A stretch of DNA of 64,000 bases, taken from contig OX387604.1 of the NCBI GenBank assembly GCA_947568835.1, positions 850,501 through 914,500 of the forward strand, given 5' to 3'. The notes under the pieces were generated by a model. The model was given only the letters and a program-made list of their open reading frames with translations, ran no database searches and had not been told where the DNA came from. The first letter of the stretch is position 1; the number at the start of each line of letters is the position of its first letter. Source of the DNA: Protonemura montana. Taxonomy: Eukaryota; Arthropoda; Insecta; Plecoptera; Nemouridae. Shown in pieces: positions 655 through 19,900 of the stretch. A program made the translations under genes and the position numbers.

Positions 655-3600
655 AATGGACAGAATGGAAGCCTGTATGAGCAGCTGATAGCTCTGGGTG
701 GGGGTGGCCTGATCAAGTCCAGCAACTCATGTCCATCTGAGCTGGACATCAAACCTGAGCCGCTGCTTGATTTGGGTGATGTTGACTACCATGCACTCGC
801 TAAAGATCGACAAAAGAAGGACAATCACAACATGAGTATGTGTCCACATTTCTCTTTTATATCAATCCATAACTAAAAAATTAACCTGGAAGGAGAAGTG
901 AAAAAAAACCAAGATATGCATGGATGGTAATGCTTATATTAACTGGCCAATGAATGTGAGAGTGTTTTATTGCCAAAGTTAAATCATTTTCTTCTTCAAT
1001 GCCTCATCATTATTTTGGTGTTTTCACTGGTCTACTTTGATTTGCATCTTTGAAGCTCAAACCAAGATTCTCCCCAGACTATTAGGGAGAGGGGGTGACT
1101 CCAATGTAACCACCGACAAGAATGCATTACAGGACTCTTTGATAAGGGGGGGGGGGGGGGGGGGAGGTGATTTTATTGAGAATTGCATAACTTAATAAGA
1201 GATAATGTTCTTACTGATAAAACCAGGGGCGTAGTGTTCCAACTGAATAAGGTGGGTAAATGGTGATTTTTGAGTAATTGACAGAATTTATGAAATTTAC
1301 AAAATGTTCACAGTGAAATTCTTGCAACATTTCTAAGAGTTCCAGCCAGCTGATTTATTTGCATCGTTTTCTTTGGGTCCTGTAATCTCCTTGTATGGGT
1401 TTCATCAGCAGATGTTAATAAATTGGTTAAATTGGTCCAAATCAATTAAACACTGTAGTTCCCTGACATTCCAAGTTGTAGAAGTGGGGGGTATGGCTAG
1501 AAAATACATCAGTAGTGGGGTGGACTGCGCCCACTTGCTTACCCCGATGAAACCCATCTCGTTGCCAATTTGTCACCACTTTTACCTTTGCAAATGAGAG
1601 CAGCAGAGTTTTTGGGGAACAGGCTGCCAAACACTGATTGTAAAAGCACAAGATTGAAATGAGACACAAAGTTCTTAAAATTCGAAGAAGGTATTAACAT
1701 TTCAGTTCCAGCAAAGCACCTGAAAAATGAGTCCCTCCTGTACCAGTCCAATTGTGCTTTTGTTTAATTGATTCACTAGTGACTGATTTGTTTGGGTACA
1801 TTTATTTTCTACCTGCTGAGTTTAGAATTGTCCTTTCTATGCAAATTACTCTTGACCTTTGCTCCAATTTGCTTAAGAAGTATTCATCTTATCTGCAGAA
1901 AAAATGGTTGTCTCATTTCGATAGATTTTTTATTTTAAATCCAGGATAATTAGTTGAGTACACAGCTTATGCAGCTTTTGGTTTCTAGCAGTTCCCCTTG
2001 ACCATTCACACCTTCAAGTAGTTCAAATGGATAGAACAAAATCTGGAAGCAATTACATTGCAGCTATACCACAGTTCTTAATCGAGGCAACTTGCTTGTT
2101 TTGATTTATAACATTTGTTGGTTTGAAATGAGAACTGTTTTAAACTCTAGATAAATTGCACTCCATTTTTGCAAATAACTCCTTTGAAATATTATAATTT
2201 ATCAATCATCTTCTATTTCCAGTCGAGCGAAGAAGACGGTTCAATATAAACGATCGGATTAAAGAACTAGGCACGCTGCTACCAAAGAATAATGATCCGT
2301 AAGTTTTCTCACCTTTCAATTCTTGTCGCTGTTAGGCATTCAATCATCTGTGAATTGGGTAAGAGGAAACACAACGTATCGTAGATGAAATGGCGGGTTG
2401 CGAAAGATACAGCGAGTTGTAGTGTTCAGCAGCTGCCTTGTTCAAGTAGAGTGTGGAACAAGATGCAATGAGTTCAGTAAAGTTAAGTCAAGACTTCAAC
2501 CACCTTTAAAAACCTTTTTAAAAACCTTCTGTTTTTTATTATTTCAATGGCCACTCACATACACATGATCTCCTACATTTATCATAGCTTGTTTGTTCTA
2601 AACTCTGCTTCGTTAACAAGGCAGAAGCTGAAAGGTTATAAATCAACATCATTCTTTACCGGTTATTTCAACTTCGGTAAGTTGTGTTTTCTTCTTCTTT
2701 ACTCTTTCTCTTCCCCCAGCTCACATATCACGCTGGTGGTTCACATGTCTTATCTGGTTATTCTTATTTTCAGATATTATGAAATTGTCCGTGATGTGCG
2801 GCCAAATAAAGGAACTATTCTCAAATCATCTGTTGATTACATTAAGGCATTAAAACATGATGTCCAAAGAATGAAGCAAGTTGAAGCTCAACAAATTAAA
2901 TTAGAATCACAAAATAAACGCTTGTTGCTGCGAATACAGGTGAGAGAAACGTAGTTTTGTTATTTTTAGACGCATCTATTCAAACTACACTGGACTTCTT
3001 CCAACTCTTATACTTCCATTAATTGAATTCTTTGCATGTTCATTCTCATTCCCAAACATACCAGTTCTATTCATTCTTGGCTTATGGAGAAACAACGTTT
3101 TAGGCCCTAAATGAAGAACGTAAATCTCTAGGTTTACTTTTATTTTGCAAATAACGGCTGCAAATTGTTAAAGGGTTGCCTTATAATTATCAAATCAGAA
3201 AACTTCTTTGTGCTGGGGAAGCACAAGTCCACTTTACATAGTTTGTACATTTTAAGTTTAAAAATTCAATTGGAAGGAACCAAAATGTAATACATTTTTT
3301 TCTTTTGCATAACATATAACCTATGCACTTAAAGCAAAAGTGGATCTTGTCTGCCAGGTTTGTTCTGGGTAGGATTGCAGTTCTAAACACAGTGTGTGTG
3401 TTTTTTTTTTATCTAAAAGCGTTATCTTTCTGAAATCGGTGCATCTATGGGTCCTTATTTCTCTTCTTTTCTGTCCATATTTCTAGAACCACACTGAACT
3501 GTTGAGCCTGAGAAACAATTCTCTTTTTTTCAATTCAACCAACCTTTGATTGACTTGTCGTGTTTAACAATACACTGTTATGACATCTGGCCGTTCGGCA

Positions 3601-5383
3601 CTGGTCTAATGGCTTCGGTGAATGATGATGAGGATAATAATTAACCTAACCTAGCCTAGAAGGGAGGAGAGGAAACCCAGTGCCGGCACCTAGCCTACTG
3701 CTGTCGATGAGCTCCAAGGGGACCACCGGCTTAACGACCCTTCCGAAGGACAGCAGGATTCCTCCACAAATCCATGCTATCGAGAGGTTGACAACCAAGG
3801 CGAATGAAGTTTCTGTACTAAATTTCATCCCTCCAACATCTCTCTCGAACAGAACTGGTCATGTGTAAGATGGTCAGCCATCCAATACCTGACTCAGGGC
3901 AGTGTTGCTGAACTTCGGTAATCTCACGAGAACCGGTATTTCCAACATGCCAAACTGTTCGTTCAAAACCAACCTTTTTATCATATTTCTAATTGCTGTA
4001 CATGCTACAATCCTGCAAAACCAGGCTAAAAAATTTGACTTGTTTATTGGTTTGTTTCAACCCATTCACTTTCTAAAAACAAAAAGTCAACAAAAATGTA
4101 TAATTACCAATTCTACTAGAGTAAAATTCATGAAGCCAAAGCATTTTTTAAATATTTTTTATGGGAAAATGCTTATCCAAAAAGTTCAACTTTACCCTGA
4201 AGCTAACTTTTGAACTCTAATTTTCTAATATCCACTTTTTCAGGAGCTCGAGCTGCAAGCCAAGGGGCATGGCTTGCCTGTCTCAGAGTTTGCCTGGCAA
4301 CACACAGCCCCATCTACCGTCATCTTCAACTCATTTGCCAAGACTAGTCACAGCCTGCAAGACCCCATTCAGAAGGTGAGAAGTCTTGCACTTTTCACAG
4401 CTATGCCTACCCCAGTGGTTACAAAATAGCTAATTATCACTATCAAACACCACTTTTTATATTCAAACATATATATTTTACAAACTTTCTTGAGTTTATG
4501 AGATTTGGGCTTAAAAAGTTTAATTTTTCTGTTTTACACGCTTTCCTTGCATTGGGTAGGTCCCAGCTACAATGTTGCAGGGCTAACACGGTTGAGGTTT
4601 TCTGTTAGTTTTGGTGGTCATTCTAGGCACTTATGTAGATCTTCACCCAAAATGGGACATGCTCATGATCTTATCTCCTACTCATTCTTCCTACGAACTC
4701 CCAGGCCTAAGAAACAGCAGCCACTTGCTGCCAAGAGATTCCCAGTGGCTACAGCTACAGTGGTAGTAGAAGGTAGTAGTGACAAATATTGTCTTAAGTA
4801 TTTAGTGCCTCATCTGTTTGTGCCACTGGTCACTGTGGCTTCCACCCTATCTGTATGCAAAAGAACAGTTGATGCTGTTAAAGTATTCCTATGACTTCGA
4901 TCATTTTTGTTGGATCATTTTATATTAGAAATCTCATTAATCTGAATGTTTGAAGAGAACATCAATCATCTCAATCATTTCAATCATTTCAATCATTTTC
5001 AAACTCGAGTACCATGAACTATTTTTCCTCAAAACTTTTGGAACCTACCATACGCTTATACATTAAATGCGATAAGATTAAATTTTGCCACTGATGACAT
5101 GTTTTGTCTAAGATTAATTTTACAAGCTAACTCTGCATTGAACTTACGCTTGTTGTTTTAATCCTTTCAGATGCCAGACATTTTGGCAGAAGCTGCAACG
5201 CTAAGTGCAAGTGAAGTTGAAGATTTAATGGACGATGACGTGCCAGTGAATGGTGACCCTATGTTGTCATCTCCTCACCTGCCCAGTCCCGCACCCCCCG
5301 ACCATCACCATCACTGCATGGATGACGATGTGGCAGATGAGGATGAAGACTCACTAGTTGGTGACATAGACATGGTGGCATGA
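655..5383 (+). CDS. Mitf: Mitf/TFE-family bHLH-leucine-zipper transcription factor, 3' part (5 exons)
   Basis: Join 655-835, 2223-2298, 2774-2939, 4244-4375 and 5171-5383. Every junction is GT-AG, the phases agree, and the joined exons give about 255 residues. Exon 1 carries the SNSCP patch and ends in the basic-region lead [14 protein letters not shown]. Exon 2 gives [21 protein letters not shown], which is the DNA-contacting basic region and helix 1. Exon 3 gives helix 2 ([19 protein letters not shown]) and the start of the zipper. Exon 4 continues the zipper and exon 5 is an acidic tail. Known family role: a nuclear dimer that binds E-box/CLEAR sites and drives lysosomal and autophagy genes. 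Helix 2 is preceded by [10 protein letters not shown], the insect type of loop, rather than the short vertebrate DMRW. The N-terminal exons are outside the window. Confidence 0.95.
1146..1164. repeat. G19 homopolymer in a Mitf intron
   Basis: A run of 19 G in an AT-rich intron. The length may be unreliable in an assembly. Confidence 0.95.
2223..2298 (+). CDS. Mitf: Mitf exon encoding the basic region and helix 1
   Basis: This 76-bp exon is flanked by CCAG and GTAAGT. The first codon is completed by the last A of the 655-835 exon (A|TC, Ile) and the last codon runs on into the next exon (CC|A, Pro). The run of four arginines after Ile-Glu holds the E-box contact residues of the MiT family (His-Asn on the previous exon, Glu-Arg-Arg here). 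I see no disabling change. Confidence 0.93.
2774..2939 (+). CDS. Mitf: Mitf exon encoding loop, helix 2 and start of the zipper
   Basis: This 166-bp exon follows a TTTTCAG acceptor and ends CAG|GTGAGA. It encodes an extended loop ([13 protein letters not shown]), helix 2, and a leucine/isoleucine heptad stretch ending LLLRIQ. The extended loop also occurs in insect Mitf. Vertebrate MITF has a shorter segment here. Confidence 0.93.
3590..3960 (-). repeat. SINE-like repeat with a 5S-rRNA-like head (copy 1)
   Basis: Read on -, the head at about 3960-3860 resembles the internal promoter half of 5S rRNA. It has an ATACCGGTTCTCG block, CCGAAGTTCAGCAACA (like 5S box A) and TATTGGATGGCTGACCATC (like 5S box C). 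The body then has a CCTTCGGAAGGGTCGTTAAGC segment and a GGTTTCCTCTCCTCC segment. It lies inside the Mitf intron 2940-4243. A second copy in the opposite orientation at about 40198-40540 shares the box-C segment and both later segments. This argues for a dispersed element rather than a lone 5S pseudogene. Confidence 0.6.
5171..5383 (+). CDS. Mitf: Mitf terminal exon, acidic C-terminus
   Basis: The last coding exon follows CTTTCAG and has 70 codons before TGA at 5381-5383. It has an acidic patch ([12 protein letters not shown]), a short proline-rich stretch, a His run and a second acidic run ([12 protein letters not shown]). The motif LEDILMDD...DPLLSS of vertebrate MITF corresponds to VEDLMDDD...DPMLSS here. 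That match supports homology out to the C-terminus. Confidence 0.9.
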   Translation: MPDILAEAATLSASEVEDLMDDDVPVNGDPMLSSPHLPSPAPPDHHHHCMDDDVADEDEDSLVGDIDMVA

Positions 5384-7029: not shown

Positions 7030-7568
7030 ATAAATCAGCTTGGTTGGTTATTAAAATATGATGTCTTATAATATTAACACATGTTTGGTATAAATATTCA
7101 GAAATTTCTGATTTGCAACAGCAAATTTACTCTCAGACAAGAAATTCTTCTTTAAGAATCTTGGCTTGTTGATACATAATCTTACATCATGATCCATGAT
7201 AAAAAAAATCTTTTATCCCTTCACTGATGAAGCATCTGTGTCGCTCATTGGACCCTGAAGTCATGGTTTTCGTATCGCAGAGCAGTTGACATCAGCTCGG
7301 ACCTGACCCTTTCTAGCTTCTACTGCCAAAGCACTGACAGAAGTGATATAGCAGGCACTCGTAGCAGGCACTCTATGCTCTCATGACCGGAAACTTAAAG
7401 CTCCTGATTTTATCTGATGAAACAAGCTTTTCTTCCTGGCTGAAAATGCTTACTTTTGCTTAAGTTTATTGGTTTGGGTTTGTGTGAGATCACTGCCTTG
7501 TGATGTTTTAGGGATGTGAACTTATCACACTTATCATTTTTTATACTACATCGAAATCTTTTTAAATT

Positions 7569-7660
7569 GGCAACCAGTGTCGGACTGGCCAGGGCAGCCA
7601 GGCGGCAAATGCCGCCGGGGCCTCCAGCCGGCCGGGGCCCCTGGGGCCCCCATTTACAAT
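7569..7660 (+). repeat. GC-rich dispersed repeat, CAGTGTCGGACTGGCC type (copy 1)
   Basis: This copy contains CAGTGTCGGACTGG followed by GGCAAATGCCGCCGGGGCC. The same blocks occur in reverse orientation at about 12134-12234. I do not know the family name. Confidence 0.55.
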
Positions 7661-7904
7661 AAGGAAGTTGTTTAAAACATTTTTTAATTTATAGTCATTT
7701 AATTATGTTGTCTTAATGTTGCAAATAGCCAGTGCTTGTTATCATTGAGCCACGCTGCCCTGATGGCAACAGGTTGGTGGAAGTCGTATATAAACACTTG
7801 ATTTTAGACTTGGTAAAAAAAAATCATGAAAGTTATATTTCGGATCATCTCTCCCCATCCCTTCACTTGATCCATGTTCCAGGTGAAGGGGTTTGTAAGA
7901 CAAA

Positions 7905-7980
7905 TGTAGGAGGTGCCGGGAAGCGAACTGCGGACCCCACGCATTGGAACTCACGACCATCCCACTGCATGGTAGGACAC
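7905..7980 (-). repeat. tRNA-like remnant, weak
   Basis: Read on -, GTCCGCAGTTCGCTTCCCGGC resembles a tRNA T-arm with an imperfect B box. The 5' half does not fold convincingly. Probably a SINE fragment. Confidence 0.35.
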
Positions 7981-8540
7981 ATATGCTGTTACTGATTTGT
8001 TATCAACATGCAAGTCAATAAAACAAGATGTAAATAAATCACTTCTAGCAGTAATATTTATGTGTGAATCCTGATGGGTAGGCCACTCATCGTACACGTG
8101 TGCACTGACGTCGTGTTTACAGTCCAGGCGTTGGGTGTGCAGTTACTTCAATTTCCACTCAAAAAATATTGAAAAATCAATGGACGTTTTTTATGTTTCT
8201 TACGTTTATTCTTGATTTTTGAAGATTCGCCCATACTGTGATCTATGGGGTATTTTGCACCCCCGAACACGATGGGCTATTATGGGCACGATTCCGTTAT
8301 TTTATATCTTCAAGGTTGGCAGTTCAGCAAGGTGGGTACACGGGTTACCGACCGATGGCCGTGATTTATCGACATTTTAATTGATCAAGTACATTTGATA
8401 TCCAACAGAATGCGTTTGCGATTACTGTGTGATTTAACTCGACTGCTGGTTCGGTGATACTTGTTTGGTATGGTTGACCAGGATACCTGCATTCGAACAA
8501 CGGGGTTCGACTGGCGTTCCTCCAGTCGGGCTTCAAGGCT

Positions 8541-8620
8541 TGCATTTTCGCGTCAGATCGTGGCAACTGGTGAAAGCCCATATTTTTGGAGTGGCCGTGG
8601 CCTCAGCACTGCTTGGTGTT
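8541..8620 (-). repeat. dispersed repeat, CACCAGTTGCCACGATCT type (copy 1)
   Basis: Read on -, this shares CCAAG(C/T)A(G/A)TGC, a CCACTCCAAA block and CACCAGTTGCCACGATCT with the + strand at about 10583-10665. The family is unknown to me. Confidence 0.5.
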
Positions 8621-8690
8621 GGGGCCCGGTCCGGCATTTACACATCGTGTAGAGGCGAAACCTTCTTTCTCTATTAGCGCATGGTTGATA

Positions 8691-8780
8691 TCGTGGTGGT
8701 GGTGATGGTGATGTTGGTGATGTTGGTGATGTTGGTAATGTTGTTGGTGTTTGTGTTAATGCTGATAATGTTGTTCGTAT
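8691..8780 (+). repeat. degenerate TGATGTTGG minisatellite
   Basis: GGT/GAT triplets pass into several copies of the 9-mer TGATGTTGG and then decay into related TG-rich sequence. Confidence 0.85.
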
Positions 8781-9145
8781 TATTGTACGTTATCTTCGTT
8801 ACAATGTTTGTGATGATGTTTGTTCATTTCTATGTCGCATGATTATATAATGTAATTATAATTCCGCATAACTTGTCTGTATATTACTCTTTCCCCGTTT
8901 TCCTACTTCTTCTTATATATTTACTTTATGTATTTATAATATAATATATATTAATATTTAATTTTTCGTACTTAAGTTACTTTTTCTTTTAGTAACAGTA
9001 GCCATCTTTTCATTTATAGTTCCCCACCATGGCCACTATTGTTTCGTTGATTATCACCCCCTAGTAGCCAGGCTAGGAACTAAAATATAATTTGAAATTT
9101 TTTTCTTGCCCTGGAGGATGATTGGTGTGATTAAAAAAAGATGTA

Positions 9146-9218
9146 GGCAACGAGGATCGAACGCAGGACGTTTGATACCTGATGCACATAAACCGCTCGA
9201 CCACAAGACCCGCTCTCC
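9146..9218 (-). repeat. tRNA-like element (SINE head or tRNA pseudogene)
   Basis: Read on -, GTGGTCGAGCGG fits a pol III A box and GCGTTCGATCC fits a B box at normal tRNA spacing. The T stem has at least two mismatched pairs and the acceptor stem is not closed, so a working tRNA is unlikely. It is the first clear member of the same-strand run at 9.1-11.5 kb. Confidence 0.5.
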
Positions 9219-9509
9219 ACGAAATGTTTTTTTGGGATACATAGATTGTTCAACTGTGACAACTCTATCAAAATTTCCGAAAAAAATCTCAAATACTGTC
9301 TCCATGATTTTCAATAAAAGATATTTCGACGAAACATTATAAACATCAGCTTCAGTATTGCCCATCATCGTACAAAATAAAAATACGTTCGAAGTCTTGT
9401 ACAGTTTACTCATCCTGGATCTTTCACTATGTATGAACGACAAGTGGTGTCATCTAACACCACTTGGACACCCAGGACAACGGTGCCATACTCTGGCGCT
9501 GGCCATTAG

Positions 9510-9756
9510 GTCTAGCATCAAGCGTATAGGAACGATTACAATGAGTGTTACGCATCATCAGCGCCACATGTTGACAGGAGTTTGTACTACACTTTGAACA
9601 AATTATTTTCCGATTAGTTAATCAATTAGATTAAAAATCAGACTTGGCAAATGTCTTCAATTTTTACAAGTCCAGAGTATAGTACAAAATCCTGCCAACA
9701 GGTGGCGCTGATGATGCCTAACACTCATTATCGTTCCTATATACTTGATGCTAGAC
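9510..9756. mobile_element. MITE-like foldback element with about 79-bp terminal inverted repeats
   Basis: The left arm 9510-9590 and right arm 9678-9756 are inverted copies. They start with GTCTAGCATCAAG, continue through GTATAGGAACGAT (left) or its variant with ATATAG (right), then ATGAGTGTTA and GCATCATCAGCGCCAC, and finish near TTTGTACTA. There are few mismatches and small gaps. The 87-bp centre has no coding potential. No clear target-site duplication is visible. A non-autonomous DNA transposon is the simplest reading. Confidence 0.7.
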
Positions 9757-9769
9757 GTAGGAGCCCAGC

Positions 9770-10036
9770 GCGTGAGCGACTGGCGCTCCGCGCCAGTCGC
9801 TCACGCACGCTGCTGGGCCCTGGCGCGGAGCGCCAGGGCCCAGCAGCGTGCCGGCGCGCCGGTGCACCTGAGCGCGCTTCGCGCGCTCAGGTGCACGGGC
9901 GCGACGGCGGGCGTTTTAGCGCGCGAAGCGCGCTAAAACGCCCGCCGTCGCGCGCTCACGCGCGCGAAGCGCGCGTGAGCGATTCAAAATTGCGGAGCGC
10001 GACTGGCGCGAAGCGCCAGTCGCGCTCCGCAATTTT
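9770..10036. repeat. array of seven back-to-back perfect palindromes with 3-nt loops
   Basis: Units by position. H1: 9770-9786/9790-9806, 17-bp stem, loop TCC. H2: 9805-9826/9830-9851, 22 bp, loop GGA. H3: 9851-9862, perfect 12-bp palindrome without a loop. H4: 9862-9877/9881-9896, 16 bp, loop TTC. H5: 9899-9924/9928-9953, 26 bp, loop GAA. H6: 9953-9965/9969-9981, 13 bp, loop GAA. H7: 9986-10009/10013-10036, 24 bp, loop GAA. All stems are perfect and neighbours abut or overlap by one or two bases, with gaps of at most 4 bp. The block is very GC-rich against AT-rich flanks. H4-H7 carry GCGAAGC at the tip on one strand, a sequence known to form an unusually stable DNA mini-hairpin. Function unknown. 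Confidence 0.9.
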
Positions 10037-10093
10037 CGTGGTATCTTTACCGTTCGCTCAAAAAAAAAAAAAAGGTGTGAAACTGCAGTAGTT

Positions 10094-10178
10094 GTGCGGA
10101 CGGGATTCGAACCCGGGACCCCGGAAATCTCATGATTGTTCACAAGAGGTAATGCCTTGTACCAACGTCCACGCGGAC
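10094..10178 (-). repeat. tRNA-like element next to the hairpin array
   Basis: Read on -, CCCGGGTTCGAATCCCG is a near-perfect T-arm with a consensus B box. The 5' part (GTGGACGTTGGTACAAGGC) is A-box-like. The two ends carry GTCCGC as a direct rather than an inverted repeat, so no acceptor stem forms. More likely a SINE end than a tRNA gene. Confidence 0.5.
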
Positions 10179-10278
10179 ATGTAGTTATACAGGCATTTTT
10201 ATGGTATATACTTTCTTCAGACTGCAGCTACCATATGTGAATAATTTGAATGTCGTATTCCAATAGAAAAAATATCCT

Positions 10279-10358
10279 GTCGGTGAGCGGGATCGAACCA
10301 TGTCACAATGTAGCTTGATGGTTCCGAAGTAACGACATGTCCATTGTGCTACGCAGAC
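10279..10358 (-). repeat. tRNA-like element, best preserved of the cluster
   Basis: Read on -, it starts GTCTGCG, has TAGCACAATGG (A box) and TGGTTCGATCCCG (B box), and ends CACCGAC. Five of seven acceptor positions can pair. The length is 80 nt. It could be a degenerate tRNA or a SINE head. I do not assign an anticodon because the anticodon arm is unclear. Confidence 0.5.
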
Positions 10359-10582
10359 GGTCGCCCCTGTGGTGGTAAACTGAATATATTTTAATTTCAT
10401 ATCTGATGTCCCTGTTTACCGGGTTGACTATAGGCACATGTCACTGACGGCACTCAATGTATACTACGGTTCGGAGTCGCATTCTTCTTTGCGTTTCAGT
10501 GAACCATCATTTAAGAAATTCAAGATATTATGATCGACTATGACCGACTTACGCAGCGAGCAAGAACTGGACCTGACCCCCG

Positions 10583-10665
10583 CACCAAGTAATGCAGGGG
10601 CAATCGTCCACTCCAAAGATACGGGCTACCACCAGTTGCCACGATCTAGCGTGAAAGTGTCAGCT
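10583..10665 (+). repeat. dispersed repeat, CACCAGTTGCCACGATCT type (copy 2)
   Basis: Partner of 8541-8620 in the opposite orientation, with shared blocks CCACTCCAAA and CACCAGTTGCCACGATCT. Confidence 0.5.
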
Positions 10666-10838
10666 GATAGCGCCCTCTGCAGGGACGCGAGCCACACCCA
10701 GTTGCTGGTTTGTCGTTTTTTTTTGTTTTTTTTTGCCTTCTTATCCGACCCCGGCAGCATGGAGATCGCTTTACACTACATCGCCTCTGCCATGCACTAT
10801 CAAAGATTGTGCAAGCTATGTCGTGAAGAACAAAAAGC

Positions 10839-10915
10839 GGAGCGGACAGGACTCGAACGCGGTCACATCCGAATTGCTCTTTCGTGGAGCGACTTTTCCA
10901 ACCGGCCATCGAGAC
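10839..10915 (-). repeat. tRNA-like SINE, GTCTC-TGGCC family (copy 1)
   Basis: Read on -, GTCTCGATGGCCGGTTGG gives an A box and GCGTTCGAGTCCTG a B box. Just downstream is TTTTTGTTCTTCA. The copy at 11082-11161 shares the start (GTCTC..TGGCCG), the B-box region and this downstream tract, so both belong to one SINE family. Confidence 0.6.
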
Positions 10916-11081
10916 GAGATGATTTTCGGTGGAACAAAGAGATACATGAATAGCAGAAGACGACTACAGTGTAATAATGAAAAGAGTCAAAAATACTTTG
11001 AGAGTTTCGATGGATGAACGAGCGATGCAATATTTGCAGCATTCAATGAATGCCAGTCGCCACTTGATGAAGAACAAAATG

Positions 11082-11161
11082 AGGATCGGGCAGGATTCGA
11101 ACTCGAGACATTTAAGCAATGTCCCCATGAAGAAGTGGCCGTACCTCACGGCCACTGAGAC
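11082..11161 (-). repeat. tRNA-like SINE, GTCTC-TGGCC family (copy 2)
   Basis: Read on -, it has GTCTCAGTGGCCGTGAGG (A box), GAGTTCGAATCCTG (B box) and TTTTGTTCTTCA downstream, as in the copy at 10839-10915. Confidence 0.6.
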
Positions 11162-11288
11162 ATGTTACCAGAGGAAATAACATATACTTGAATAGCAGCT
11201 GGCGGGGATCACGGTACATCATCGAGAAGAGATGTTAGTTTTCTCTGTAAAGATTAATACATATCCAGCAGTTTTACACACATGTGAC

Positions 11289-11360
11289 TTACCTGCTTCG
11301 AACCAGCGACCCTCTGCACCCTGGCGCTGAGCACGAGAGCGATCTTCACTCGCCGCCGAA
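11289..11360 (-). repeat. tRNA-like 3' end, weak
   Basis: Read on -, GGGTCGCTGGTTCGAAGCAGG resembles a T-arm with a B box. The 5' half is not convincingly tRNA-like. Confidence 0.4.
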
Positions 11361-11446
11361 TGGACGCTACGAAGACCGGCGAGAGTTGCATGGCAATACT
11401 TTAACAATCTTGGTAGGTGATTGATTCTTAGTTAAAAATAGTGCAC

Positions 11447-11520
11447 CAAGCGGGATACGAACCCTTTCCGCAACCTTTCCGGAAATGAATGATCGATTTA
11501 CACTATCGCAAGAAAAAGTG
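11447..11520 (-). repeat. tRNA-like remnant
   Basis: Read on -, a T-arm-like GGGTTCGTATCCCG follows a GCGATAGTGTAAATC stretch that is loosely A-box-like. Confidence 0.4.
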
Positions 11521-11853
11521 GGTACGCGGGGCTAACGTGAGCTTACGCCAAAAATAACCTCTGCAGTGGGCAGAAAATGTATCGTATTCCAGACTAAGAA
11601 ATGCACCAGTATGTTTTTGCCCTAGCACAAGCATTTTTCTGAGAAGTAGATAGACGATTTCAAAAAGGCTTTATTTTCAGTAATTCCAAAGGCAATTAAT
11701 ATTGTGTTGTAATATCGTGTTAATATCGTGTATCGTGTTTCTACGATTTCGTAGAGTCCTGTAGCCTGGTTGTAAATCGTCTATTCAATTTTATGAATCG
11801 TCGACGTGTTGACTCTTGTCGACAAATTTTTTCATTTAATTTTGGCGTGTGCC

Positions 11854-12344
11854 GTGCTGCCTGAGTTTTTTTCGGGGCACAAAATTTGGGTTTTGCTTCG
11901 GGCGTCCAAACCCTACACTGTGCGTACACGACACTCTGCGTATGTCAAGTCGATACGTCACAGGTGTATAATTTTGGTTTAATTAATTTCAAATTGGCCA
12001 TTGATCGATCATTGTGTCTATAAATCTCCATTCTATAATGCCGGACTTGGGCGCTGCTACCAGTTTATGTGTATACAACCCTTAGTTGACCTATACACCA
12101 ACTTGCATATACATTCCTTTCCTGCTTAGCGGACCCCCCCCCCCCCCCCCCCTCCCAAGGCATGGGCTTTGCGGGGCCCCAAAAGTCTCATTGCCGCCGG
12201 GGCCTTTTGGAGCCAGTCCGACACTGTTGGCAACAACATTGAAGGTATACTTGACACGTGAGGTGCTGCCTGAGTTTTTTTCGGGGCACAAAATTTGGGT
12301 TTTGCTTCGGGCGTCCAAACCATACACTGTGCGTACACGACACT
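11854..12344 (+). repeat. 82-bp direct repeat pair (11854-11935 and 12263-12344)
   Basis: The two 82-bp copies differ at a single base (CCCTACAC versus CCATACAC), start at GTGCTGCCTGAG and end at ACACGACACT. They enclose 327 bp containing the C19 run and the second CAGTGTCGGACTGG repeat. Flanks outside the copies do not match. The layout could be a small LTR-like (TRIM) element or a local duplication. Confidence 0.85.
12134..12234 (-). repeat. GC-rich dispersed repeat with C19 run (copy 2)
   Basis: The reverse complement shares CAGTGTCGGACTGG and the GGC(A)ATG...GCC(C)CGGCGG block with 7569-7660. A run of 19 C lies at 12134-12152. Confidence 0.55.
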
Positions 12345-13908: not shown

Positions 13909-16900
13909 CTAAAAACAAAAATTAAAAAAATTAGGGATAGAATAGATTTTGCCAAAGAAGCTGAGTTTTTAATTGAGATAAGTCATACATTTTTGTGCAG
14001 TTGGCTTAAATGAGCTTGGTGCAAAATCAGCTTTGAAGTCTTTCTTCAAGAACTTACAATTAGAGTCCGTGGAACTTTCAACATGCAAACAGATGTGAAG
14101 CTGCCCTCGCGTGTGGCTTCCTGAAAGCTCTGAAAGTTGTGTTCCCAGTCGTATGTGACCAACCGTGTTTCTAGAGTCATGTCTGATAACTCTGTTGGAA
14201 GCTTGATGGATACTGGATTTGATTCCCTAAAAAGCATAAGGTTAAAATGATTATTTATAAATATAATAAGTATCCACTATTTTCTGTTTTATTCTGATAT
14301 TCTGTTTTATTTATCAGGTGTTAATTTAATACCTGGTCATAATCCGTAATGTGTAAACGTTTCATTTGACAGACTCCACAGCAAAGCAATAAAACCAGTT
14401 GGTGGTTCTAAGAAATTTGTTTCGATTCACTTACGGCCAAAGCTCCTGAATGCCAAGCGAGTGCAGTACTGTGGGCAGCGAAGGGAGGCTGTGGCACAGC
14501 GACAAGTTGATCCTCGGATAATACATGCCGTACACGAGACACTTTTCCTCGCGGGTCGTCAGCCCTCCCAGGGTAATCGTGGTGCGCTCCTCGCTGTCGT
14601 AGACGCACTCTGCGATCAGGTGGTCACCCTACACATAGAACGAAGGGTAGAAAACAATTACTATCTACAGCAGGAACGTTTCATTTGGTGATGTAGTCCA
14701 TTAGTGTAAGACGCCACGTTTCGCCATGCCATCGCCACTAATTTGATGAATTTCTTTAACAGTCGTTCTCTTGAAACATAGTATATGTTTTTTTTTTTTT
14801 TTGTTTGAAGTTGTTTATTTAGCAAAAAAATGCTATTTACAGTACATTTTACATTTTTGTAATTTCTTAGCTTAAAGTTTTACTTAGATACTAACAAAAC
14901 TTTCTAATTTTTTACTAAACTTAACAAAATCTTCCTCGCCTTTGATGTTTGCAGGAAGTGCATAATATTTTCTTACTCCTCTATAAAATATACTATTATT
15001 AGACTTGCCTTCTACATACGAATTTCTTTCTGATCTAGTATTATGTTCATGATCTTTAATATTTAGTCTATTTTCTAAGTACATAGGCATTTGACCATGT
15101 AGGATCTTAAATATAAAAGTACATACATCTATTTCAAAATTTTCTTTAACATTTTTCCATTGAAGTTTATTTAGCATTTCTCTTTGGTCAGAGAACCAAC
15201 TTTCTTTTAATATTATTCTAGCTGCCCTGTTTTGGAGTTTTTGTAGTTTCTTACATTCATTTTCGTTTGCTATTGCTAGTATTGTGCTACAGTATTTAAA
15301 ATGTGGTTTAATGATGGTATTGAAGATGATTGATTTTGTCCACATTGAAAGTTGTCTGCTTACTCTGTACAAGTATCCTAATTTTTTATCGATTTTATTT
15401 GTTACTCATTTTATATGGTCCTTGAAATTTAATTTATTATCTATAATCACTCCTAGGTACTTGATTTCACTAACAGTTTCAATATCAGTCCCCTTTATGA
15501 CTATTTTATTTTTCTGGTGACTTTCTTGTGATACACCTTTGTTTACATACATTATTTTGGACTTGGTTTCGTTTAGTTTAAGTTTATTTACATTTAGCCA
15601 TTTGGACATTATATTTACATCATAATTTAGTTTGTCTGCGACATCGTCAATATTTCGCCCACTCGTCCATATTACCATGTCGTCGGCATACATATTTAGC
15701 TGACTATATGATAAACACTTATACGCGTCATTAATATAGAGTATAAAGAGAAGGGGGCCCAAAATAGATCCTTGAGGTACTCCTTGGGTGCATTCTATGA
15801 GGTCCGATTGTTCTTTTCCGTACTTCACTCTTTGAAATCTATTTGTGAGGTAGTCATTTATCCATGCAAGAGCTTTTTCAGTGATGCCATACATAGTTTG
15901 TAGTTTGAGAAGTAGTCTTTCTCTGTTTATTGTCTCGAAAGCTCTTTTTAGGTCAAGAAAAACGGCTATTATTTTAGTTCCTTTTTCTTTCTCACTGTAG
16001 AAATTTGATATTAAATTTTGAATCGCAGTTTCACATGAGAAACCATTTCTAAAGCCCGATTGATTTTCGTATAGTAAATTATTTGTTTCTAGATAGTTTG
16101 TAAGTTGTTGATATACTAATTTTTCTATGATTTTGTCCATCACTGAAAGCATATTTATTGGTCTATATTCATTTATTTTTATTGAACCCCGAACTTTAGG
16201 TACTGGTATTATTTGAGATATTTTAAGTTTTGAGGGAAAAATTCCACTCTGAAGCGAGGCATTTATTAGGTCTAATAGGTAGTATTTTATAACAGGGTAC
16301 GAGTCTTTGAACAGTTTCACAGATATACCATCCATATCACCCTTTTTATTTCTTAGTTCCCTAATTACTTTATCCATTTCTCCAATCGAGATCTTGTTGA
16401 ACTCTATAAATTTGCAGTCTTTTTCTCTTTCATATTTCTGAATGTTGTCCAGGTTGAGTTTTCCTATGTTGTTTTCTACGTTATTATTTTCTACTTCGAT
16501 CTCAATAGTTTTTAGGATATCATTTATGCTATCAATAAAATATTTGTTAAAATGATCTGCTATTTCTAGGTCATTATTTAACATTTTTTGGTCCGAGTTT
16601 ATTATTTCATTTTTATTTTTTTCAGTATTATGTGTTTGTACTATTTTTTTAAGTGTCCTCCACATTTTTTCTCCATCATATTTGACATTGTCAATCTTTT
16701 CCTCATAATAATTCTTTTCAGCCCATCTTAGAGCATTCGTCGTCATGTTTCTTTCATTTTTATATCTTATCCAATCGTTCACCTTCCTGGACATTTTTGA
16801 TCTTTTGTACCAGTAATTTCTATTTAACACACTTTTCTTGCATTCATCATTAAACCATGGTTTACTACTTTTGTAGTTTACCTTTCGTGTCTCTTTTTTT

Positions 16901-19900
16901 ACAAACTCTTCCTTACATTTTAAAATATTTCCCTCCATATTTTTAAACATTTCATTTATATCCTTTTCGTCTCTTATCCAAGAACATCCATACAGTTTGT
17001 TTTGATATTCTTCTTTTTCATATTTGTCCCAGTTTTCGATTGTTTTAATTTTAATTTTTTCTGTTAATTCTTTAGTTTTGTTCCTATTACACACTTTTAT
17101 TTCTAGTACCTCGTGATCTGTTATGCTGATTCCATCTAATGTTTTTGCACTGATTGATTCATCATTTGAAATTACAATGTCAATTAGAGTACTGCTGTCC
17201 TTTGTTATTCTAGTTGGGCTCATTATTAATTGTCTCAGTTCATATTTTAGTACCAATTCTTTTAGTTTCCTTGTCAACGGTGAGTTTCCAAGCCAGTCAA
17301 AATTCATGTCACCCATTATAATCACTCGTTCCCTTTTGTAGGCTTCATTTTCAAAGATACGTTTTAGCTTTTTTAGCACCTCTTTCTTCTTCCCATTTGG
17401 AGAAACATATATTACATAAATATTTATAGTTTCACCATTCATCCATACTTTGGCTCCTAGCACCCAAAGTCCTATGTCTTTTAGGCTTTTTTGCTTATGT
17501 ACTGATAAAGTAAAAGCGTTCAAATAAAAATAGATAGGCGTATATATTGGCAAATATATCGGATCGTATGTCAGCGGAGTTTAAGTAATTCCATAGGAGG
17601 CTGTATGGTTTGGGCTATTTCCTGGATCTTATCTTTTGTACGCCCCACAAAATTGCGCACTCGGCCTGTCTCTAAAATATAATGGAACGGAGTTTTTGTT
17701 TCGCCTATTGAAGCAATCTGGGGAGTGGTTTATGTAAGTTGGATAAGATCTTTAATCCAAAAGTCACCCATTCTGCGCGTTCAACATCAAATTAAATGCC
17801 AACGTTATGGTCCTATAAAACGCAAATATGTACCACATTGAAAAAGTTTCGCACTTTTCCTGCGGTTTTGAAATAACAATGTAGCGGCAAATGTTCAAGT
17901 TTAAGAGTAAAGTTGTGAATAAATTACTCTGACTTACCGGTAACACTCTTACAGGCTTCGCCAGGTGCCTGTTTTCCTGGTAGTTGAAGTCGTAATTATT
18001 GTCCATGGCGATCGGTGACAACTCTTCTCCGTCGCGTATTTGCCGCAGCCTAATTTTCCTGCCAATCAGGTGAGTATGGAGGGCGACGCCAAAGATGTTG
18101 ATGCCCTTCAGCGGAAGTGTCTGCCTGGTGCAGTCTGCGATGCAATGTCCTTCGGAAACCACCTGAGGTTGACCAGGAGGGATGATGTGCCTCCAATTCG
18201 GGTCCAGACCCACCGAGATGACGCCGGCGTCGTGCTGGCGAAGGTTCTTTGTGTAGAAAATGCGGATTCCTGAGCTGTCCACGATATTTTTGTGTTGCAG
18301 ACCAGGGTTGTTGTAGTGCGTCTCCAACATGTAGTACGAGCCTGGGTTCAGGGGGTAGCCAGCCTCAGGGGGGAAGCTAAAACCCTGGATGAAATAATTG
18401 TGTGAGTATTTAAAATGATCAGTCAATAAACGTCAAGAGATATTTGAAAAGAGGTAAAGTAGTGTCGTACCTCTGACCCTTTGTTCCACGCAAGAACAAT
18501 TGTGTTACAGCTACCAAATGGGCTGTTTGGTTGATAGCAGTGCTGGCCCCGACTTCTTACAAATTCTTCTAATTTTTCGTTGTCACCATCACACTCATAT
18601 AATATCATGTGGTGCAAATAGGCAGAATTTCCACCTTCAATTAATGGTGTATACTAATGAAAAAAAAATTATAAATTAGTTGCTAACAGAAATTGTTATT
18701 AATTTTTATTTGGACTATTTAATTTGAAATTATTTCAAGCAAAAAAAGAAAAACCAGTTGTTCAACTTACAGCTATCATATGATTTTTATTTCTAATTTC
18801 TCGAGGAAGCCTGAATATTTTGCACCAGTGAAGACTGTCATCAAAGGAAGGTAGAAGCACCTGTAAATAGTAATTAAAAAATGTAGAACATATTCAAAGC
18901 ATAGTTGTTGAGCTCTTTGCAACAGTTTGGACTATTGCATCTCAATTGTTTAATCAACTTGAGTCATGCAAGGAACCTAAGGTGTGGTCATTCCTCAACA
19001 TCCAAAGTTCATTTGTTGGCACCAGCCACAAAATAATATTGGTTATCATATCTATGCATTGTTTATGGACATTGTACAATTTGAACTAGCTGCCAAAACC
19101 AACAATGAACAAAGGAAAGTTGGATGTATCATGAAGGTAAACATTTAATCCACTGCATTATCAAGGTTTACACAGTGAGTCCACAGACTGCAAACAATGT
19201 TAAGTGGTGTTAACATTTTTTGACGAGATAATACGAAATTGGTAATATCTCTACATTGATGGACGCAGCTTTTAAAGGCAGTTCATTTAAAGTGAATGCA
19301 TTGTACAGTAAAACAAGCGGGTACTGGAAACAAGAAATCTGTTAGAAGAACTTGTGAAATAAAATATTTTGAGTCAATGAAATCTTATCCATGAAAAGTA
19401 AATCATAAGAGTTTCACTAAAAATTTCACTAAAAAAACTGTCACTAAAATACTTATTGAGTTGAAAAGAACAAATAAATAATGAAAAAATTAATAATATA
19501 ATATAACTAATTTTGAAATCAATTTGTTTTGGCTAAAAACCTCTTTGACAATTTTTCTGACAAACACAGCAGATCTAATCACAATTAACAGTCTGACCAC
19601 AAGTGAATTTGTGTCAGAGCTAATGAAATTGATGATTTTGCTCATTTTTTCAATGGAAAGCAACAAACCTGCGAGTTGGTGACTTCCCAAATACGAGAGT
19701 CGTGATTAGGTAACCAAACTGGTGCTACTGGAGGGTTCTCCAGCAAATAGAGACTGCGAGAGCCCCTCTGAAGTGGCCCGTGGTAGAGCATGGAGCCCAA
19801 AGACTTAGAGCTTGATGATTTGGAGCCTGCAGGGCCAAGGGCAGCTGGGTCCTTGGAGTGGTATGACCACAGAATGCGCATTGTGTCGTTCTGCAATGCA

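Follow-up and report, generated by a model that had tools for sequence, protein, structure and literature searches.

An array of perfect short-loop DNA hairpins within a putative hAT-type transposon of Protonemura montana: arms that change together and tips that invert

A row of six perfect hairpins in the genome of the stonefly Protonemura montana appears, judging from its sequence, to be a cassette within a hAT-type DNA transposon in which no coding capacity was found. At least 37 copies in the genome bear the array, including the one in the window, as we call the whole 64-kb stretch of DNA analyzed here. Across these copies, most of the two-arm changes leave the arms paired, and the 3-nt tips of three of the six hairpins occur in both orientations. 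We consider it probable, if well short of certain, that the array reflects three things together: carriage as a cassette by the hAT element, template switching within the palindromes, and selection for DNA structure.

The hairpin array and its carrier

The earlier note on this DNA, made by inspection of the sequence, described six perfect hairpins at 9770-10036, with arms of 17, 22, 16, 26, 13 and 24 bp and 3-nt loops. A scan of the window for arms of at least 11 bp and loops of 0 to 6 nt confirmed them; these six are the only perfect hairpins that it returned from the 64 kb, and every one lies inside the block. The lengths given below as consensus refer to the 37-copy alignment described later in this section.

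H1, 9770..9806: perfect hairpin of 17 bp (19 in the consensus), tip TCC; 0 flips in 36 scorable copies
H2, 9805..9851: perfect hairpin of 22 bp, tip GGA; flips in other copies, minimum 10 events
H3, 9862..9896: perfect hairpin of 16 bp (27 in the consensus), tip TTC; flips, minimum 7 events
H4, 9899..9953: perfect hairpin of 26 bp (19 in the consensus), tip GAA; flips, minimum 6 events
H5, 9953..9981: perfect hairpin of 13 bp (14 in the consensus), gapped in 10 of 37 copies, tip GAA; 0 flips in 26 scorable copies
H6, 9986..10036: perfect hairpin of 24 bp, tip GAA; 0 flips in 36 scorable copies

The GCGC-NNN-GCGC tips and the loops of exactly 3 nt are as originally claimed, and the tips of all six window hairpins are GNA or its complement TNC (TCC, GGA, TTC, GAA, GAA and GAA, in order). 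The stems had been described as differing from unit to unit. The arms do vary, but they are not unrelated: the core type CTGGCGC-NNN-GCGCCAG recurs in H1, H2 and H6 and the type GCGCGC-NNN-GCGCGC in H3, H4 and H5, and H1 and H6 have in common a 25-nt core that is 96% complementary. The pattern GCGCGNAGCGC occurs six times in the window, always within the hairpin block, and in none of 100 shuffles, and folding of 9765-10040 as single-stranded DNA gave -179.7 kcal/mol (z = -25 against 200 shuffles); on both counts chance is no explanation of the perfect stems, as the note had argued. The 12-bp palindrome at 9851-9862 that had been counted as a seventh unit is present, but we read it as decayed outer H3 rather than as a separate unit, because its position corresponds to the outer part of the 27-bp H3 arm in the 37-copy consensus. 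In that consensus the six palindromes, all perfect, have arms of 19, 22, 27, 19, 14 and 24 bp and lie end to end or almost so.

The genome searched comprises 258 Mb in 34 contigs. A search with the kilobase around the block returned 543 candidates, and among the 40 scored, 37 (the window included) matched over most of the length and 3 over part of it. For alignment of the array itself, 42 places were considered (the window, L010-L038 and L049-L060) and 37 were used: L056, L057 and L060 were dropped for lack of the two block ends and L058 and L059 as unalignable or decayed, while L055 was kept even though parts of its H2, H3 and H6 are missing. In this alignment 284 gapped cells were set aside. 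Divergence from the consensus was 3.4% in the stems, 4.6% in the flanks and 27% in the few spacer columns.

The features of the putative carrier in the window are as follows.

7567..7574, no strand: left target-site duplication TTGGCAAC, repeated exactly at 12227-12234
7575..7589, plus strand: left terminal inverted repeat (TIR) CAGTGTCGGACTGGC, with at most 2 differences in 19 of the 23 copies whose left end was read
7575..12226, no strand: putative hAT-type element of 4.65 kb, with TIRs and target-site duplication
9507..9759, no strand: long imperfect foldback (arms 9507-9599 and 9670-9759), used as an internal control
12212..12226, minus strand: right TIR GCCAGTCCGACACTG, the inverse of the left TIR
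12227..12234, no strand: right target-site duplication TTGGCAAC, matching the left one

The left end of the element was placed near 7575 by comparing copies. hAT transposons are recognized by short CAG...CTG TIRs combined with 8-bp duplications. The TIRs here (CAGTGTCGGACTGGC/GCCAGTCCGACACTG) are short, start with CAG and end with CTG, and an 8-bp target-site duplication flanks both of the two copies read at both ends, being TTGGCAAC in the window and GCCCTAGC in a second copy with the same TIRs (C16, about 12483150-12489439). The ends vary among copies: the left TIR is missing in 4 of the 23 copies with a left end read, the right TIR was found in two (L063 and L066) of six further copies read 2.5-3 kb rightwards and not in the other four, and 18 of 29 other copies compared leave the window copy at 11463-11469, where another sequence takes its place. 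No transposase was seen, in that none of the 5 open reading frames (ORFs) tested among the 22 of at least 60 aa in the window element matched Pfam; L063 has one ORF of at least 90 aa. Non-autonomous transposons of the hAT superfamily are similar in their short CAG...CTG TIRs, 8-bp duplications, dispersed copies and want of any coding capacity found, but the present element is long, measuring 4.65 kb in the window and about 6.3 kb in the second copy, and is set apart by its palindrome array and by repeated motifs that resemble the tRNA T-arm (B-box-like). The suggestion of a mobile hairpin family therefore holds as regards mobility, with the hairpins as apparent passengers inside a hAT-type transposon.

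Inside the element, six of the T-arm/B-box-like motifs (GGRNNCGAAC) share one strand, at window positions 7919-11462; the whole window has 7, against 1.67 expected. They are perhaps degenerate tRNA-like or Pol III-type modules, despite which ARAGORN called no tRNA in the window or in 21 loci. A 94-nt direct repeat (94%) occurs at 11842-11935 inside the element and at 12251-12344 just beyond its right end.

At gathering score, the only Rfam match in the window lies outside the hairpin block and is to 5S rRNA (3843-3963, minus strand, RF00001, 44.2 bits). Stretches around 3546-3965 recur in other loci at about 73-86%, and the 5S-like region is for this reason perhaps a 5S-derived SINE. Non-LTR retrotransposon reading frames occupy 14884-17553 on the minus strand, a 715-aa frame having endonuclease and reverse transcriptase domains and a 162-aa frame having no Pfam match; the reverse transcriptase gave 12 matches in a protein search (E up to 1e-60, best 36% identity). 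One exon in the window codes for a protein in which Pfam finds copper monooxygenase domains, best matched by a termite MOXD1-like protein (59%), and those of its matches that show an organism are from arthropods, except for one tardigrade.

Concerted change of the arms and inversion of the tips

In the 37 copies there are 4341 ungapped pair cells in the array, 4155 of which equal the consensus. Both arms have changed in 91 cells that still pair and in 3 that do not, and one arm alone has changed in 92 (62 mismatched, 30 G.T). In the neighboring long foldback of the same 37 copies, two-arm changes number 2 pairing and 1 non-pairing, against 140 mismatched and 46 G.T one-arm changes. The copies are therefore old enough for arms to have drifted apart, and only the short-loop palindromes resist. 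In a pair-counting test on 30 of the 37 copies, 69 two-arm cells were counted, against 12.2 +/- 2.9 after shuffling and 1-7 after sliding by 1-3 columns.

Events were placed by parsimony on a maximum-likelihood tree of the flanks (placed by BLAST; 37 tips, length 1.43), which gave 47 doubles from pair to pair, 3 doubles to non-pairs, 57 one-sided breaks, 27 one-sided changes to G.T and 9 restorations. These counts are approximate, since the flank tree has high bootstrap support for many small groups, lower support for several others and a weak backbone, and since conversion between copies may have spread states; on tip branches, two-arm events before and after insertion are not separable. Fourteen of the 47 pair-to-pair doubles could not have arisen via a single G.T wobble. 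Doubles also cluster in the same hairpin on the same branch, as exemplified by four H4 pairs on the branch that leads to the window and L010: there are 13 co-branch pairs, against 5.4 +/- 2.1 in permutations, a value reached in 5 of 5000, although a null based on branch length leaves a weaker signal (136 of 5000). Multi-pair compensatory changes thus exceed chance, less clearly so against the latter null, as is characteristic of homogenization by template switching.

The tips are almost invariant in kind and variable in orientation, 207 of 210 being GNA or TNC. In the 37-copy set, both orientations occur at H2 (GGA 19, TCC 7, TTC 6, GAA 5), H3 (TTC 27, GAA 9) and H4 (GAA 15, TCC 13, GGA 5, TTC 3, CAA 1), while H1 (TCC 32, TTC 4, TCA 1), H5 (GAA 24, GGA 2, GAC 1) and H6 (GAA 34, GGA 2) keep a single one. 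On the flank tree the observed tips require at least 23 inversions, 10 in H2, 7 in H3, 6 in H4 and 0 in H1, H5 and H6, a strong split of 23 against 0 between flipping and locked hairpins. A purely mechanical process does not account for the locked H1, H5 and H6, whose arms reach 24 bp. Flips separate sister copies that have 100% support (L021/L023, L020/L025 and L024/L029), and 4 of the 23 flips share a branch with two-arm changes, which is no clear association (p = 0.13).

Four copies bear on whether these changes need transposition. L036, L037, L038 and L052 are 98-99% identical over 1 kb beyond the left TIR, and from this comparison of left flanks we read them as probably one hAT insertion that was later copied with its surroundings. 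Closest to the TIR, this flank is part of a more common repeat, a fifth place (C2:18696875) has part of the flank at 97%, and the element flanks of the four differ by 2.1-2.8%. In H3 the sole difference between L036 and L037 is an inverted tip, and so it is in H2 between L037 and L038; in both, the spacer is swapped for its exact reverse complement and the arms are unchanged, which is what inversion by template switching produces. Because these two inversions separate copies with a common outside flank, flipping can occur without hAT transposition. The arms behave otherwise: six one-arm breaks stand uncorrected in the group (five in L052, one in L037), compensation was found 0 times in this small sample of four copies, and two further differences are at H4 positions whose partners are deleted in the group. 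With flips and no compensation among the four, inversion in place is shown and repair of the arms in place is not.

Origin, template switching and selection

The account that we think probable would begin with one imperfect, GNA-tipped hairpin that grew into five or six abutting palindromes. H6 is the counterpart of a single imperfect hairpin found in related, more diverged repeats. Seven such loci (L002-L008) each have, at the queried tip, one imperfect hairpin of the H6 kind, mostly between the same flanking motifs. The hairpin reads ...GCGCGACTGGCGC-GAA-GCGCCAGGAGCGC... or nearly so, and contains a GA/GA tandem mismatch. Genome-wide, this hairpin has 853 strand matches with at most 3 mismatches, the H6 of array copies included, against 0 for the reversed control, and among the 100 matches listed 95 have a GNA tip and 0 a TNC tip. 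Some single-hairpin repeats follow one another head to tail, in arrays whose unit measures about 1.75-1.79 kb (C1:28.85M, 29.63M and 30.87M; C3:22.73M). Moreover, L023, L029, L034 and L054 retain GGAG where other copies have GTCG or GTTG, and copies of the L036 type, which have no H5, hold an apparent remnant of the old spacer. The single-hairpin relatives, the GGAG remnants and the L036-type spacer together suggest that the array grew from one hairpin.

The DNA mini-hairpin d(GCGAAGC) is stable and very compact, and GC-GNA-GC tips could likewise nucleate very compact DNA hairpins. During DNA synthesis a polymerase may then switch template within the palindrome, and such a switch would invert the 3-nt tip and copy one arm onto the other, so that the arms would stay complementary while their sequence drifts. 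The earlier note had proposed hairpin-primed synthesis as one origin of the block, and this finds support in the sense of template switching, by which arms homogenize and 3-nt tips invert. Selection for DNA structure would be a second force, with copies whose hairpins are broken being left behind by the active lineage. The ratio of doubles to one-arm breaks (G.T included) is 20:11 on internal branches and 27:73 on tip branches (Fisher p = 2e-4), and this concentration of one-arm breaks on tip branches suggests that broken hairpins drop out of the mobile lineage. The flank-sharing copies have six uncorrected breaks and none compensated, and more of the pairing could be owed to selection on the source than to template switching.

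The palindromes might instead be kept by selection alone. If an active lineage depended on DNA hairpins or cruciforms, which might for instance block replication forks, mark a chromatin boundary or offer a platform for binding, compensatory mutations could be fixed one after another, and the enrichment of one-arm breaks on tip branches, the near fixation of G and A in the tips, the constant orientation in 36 scorable copies each of the mutually inverted H1 and H6 at the array ends, and the lack of arm correction among flank-sharing copies would all be expected. The tip inversions nevertheless require an inversion mechanism regardless, and they separate copies with a common outside flank; the doubles, for their part, cluster, and 14 of 47 skip the G.T route. 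Selection alone is accordingly a possibility that we hold to be real yet doubtful. If the selected structure were instead an RNA, a miRNA-like or siRNA hairpin or other dsRNA precursor, perfect stems of the size of miRNA precursors would fit, and a relaxed Rfam scan did list 10 weak matches within the element, none of which reached gathering score and 7 of which were to miRNA models. No Rfam family matches the block at gathering score, however, the tips of H2-H4 flip strand, and one-arm cells have no clear wobble bias (30 G.U against 22 A.C); this symmetry between the strands favors a structure formed by DNA over one formed by RNA. We regard the RNA reading as very improbable, and of the structured RNA or DNA signal that had been proposed, strand-specific RNA is the part left unsupported.

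Palindromic double-stranded sites whose symmetry is kept by contacts with a homodimeric protein would explain the common symmetric core GCGCNNNGCGC of the 37-copy consensus, and a dimer would tolerate flipped spacers, but symmetry and compensation extend to pair 25 from the H3 tip and the outer sequences differ from hairpin to hairpin, making this explanation very improbable. An assembly or library artefact, which the note had asked to see excluded, comes to mind because GC-rich hairpins are difficult to sequence. It is rejected on the evidence of 37 dispersed, diverged places with lineage-specific differences in the array and of duplications around both copies read at both ends, and together with chance (0 in shuffles) it is scarcely credible. 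Returning to template switching with selection, a bolder version is that the transposon keeps a selected, self-renewing organ of DNA structure, in which the orientation-locked and mutually inverted H1 and H6 bound the flipping hairpins, fold-back synthesis at GNA tips builds and repairs the whole, and spread depends on a need at the DNA level for a cruciform or single-strand hairpin. We offer this as speculation that is rather unlikely to hold.

Relation to known systems and significance

Repeated GC-rich hairpins in AT-rich genomes, possibly mobile, are familiar from mitochondrial double-hairpin elements, GC clusters and repetitive hairpin-forming elements. Unlike these, the present hairpins are in a large animal genome assembly and are apparently carried by a DNA transposon. 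Closer parallels concern template switching between inverted-repeat arms. According to Abraham and Hazkani-Covo 2021 (PMC8604942), perfect repeats with 10-11 bp arms and 3-nt spacers differ among yeast strains by tcc/gga and ttc/gaa inversions, some of them recurrent. Monttinen and Loytynoja 2022 (PMC8794818) found multiple compensatory changes and loop inversions to be enriched in rRNA genes and the two in combination not to be. The likeness lies in arm homogenization, exact inversion of short spacers, recurrent flips and multiple compensatory changes, and the difference in context: the precedents are single hairpins in yeast coding genes and rRNA genes, whereas here five or six long, GC-rich, GNA-tipped palindromes abut in an array copied by a transposon, with some hairpins that flip often and others that never do. 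The signature matches known template switching, here seen across an array of several hairpins. Mitochondrial coding palindromes of Nematomorpha (PMC6649704) are also preserved perfect inverted repeats, but they sit in mitochondrial protein genes, and the abstract makes no mention of an array with GNA tips.

Among the papers listed for the terms used in an open-access literature search, we found no description of a transposon with such a hairpin array, and what was seen of an inverted-repeat survey across genomes (PMC13155455) contained nothing specific to it. Phage records gave no match to the block. Viral contigs yielded 17 stretches with three GCGCGNAGCGC tips, but in 13 of them hairpins with 3-nt loops and arms of 9 or more are absent. 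Two AT-rich contigs (34-36% GC), L091 (3190-3300) and L092, have four short TNC/GNA-tipped hairpins in a row with different stems, and a row of this type adjoins the largest L092 ORF; from their ORFs the contigs look phage-like, and their hairpins are probably an independent small analogue.

How long hairpins originate and keep perfect pairing is an old puzzle, and most work on it has dealt with strongly selected RNA genes. In this genome a six-hairpin array is present in dozens of diverged copies, with a foldback in the same copies as a built-in control, and one can measure how fast tips invert, how long compensatory tracts are and how much selection contributes. Such a transposon would also disperse rows of highly stable DNA hairpins across an animal genome, where they might affect replication forks, chromatin and fragility.
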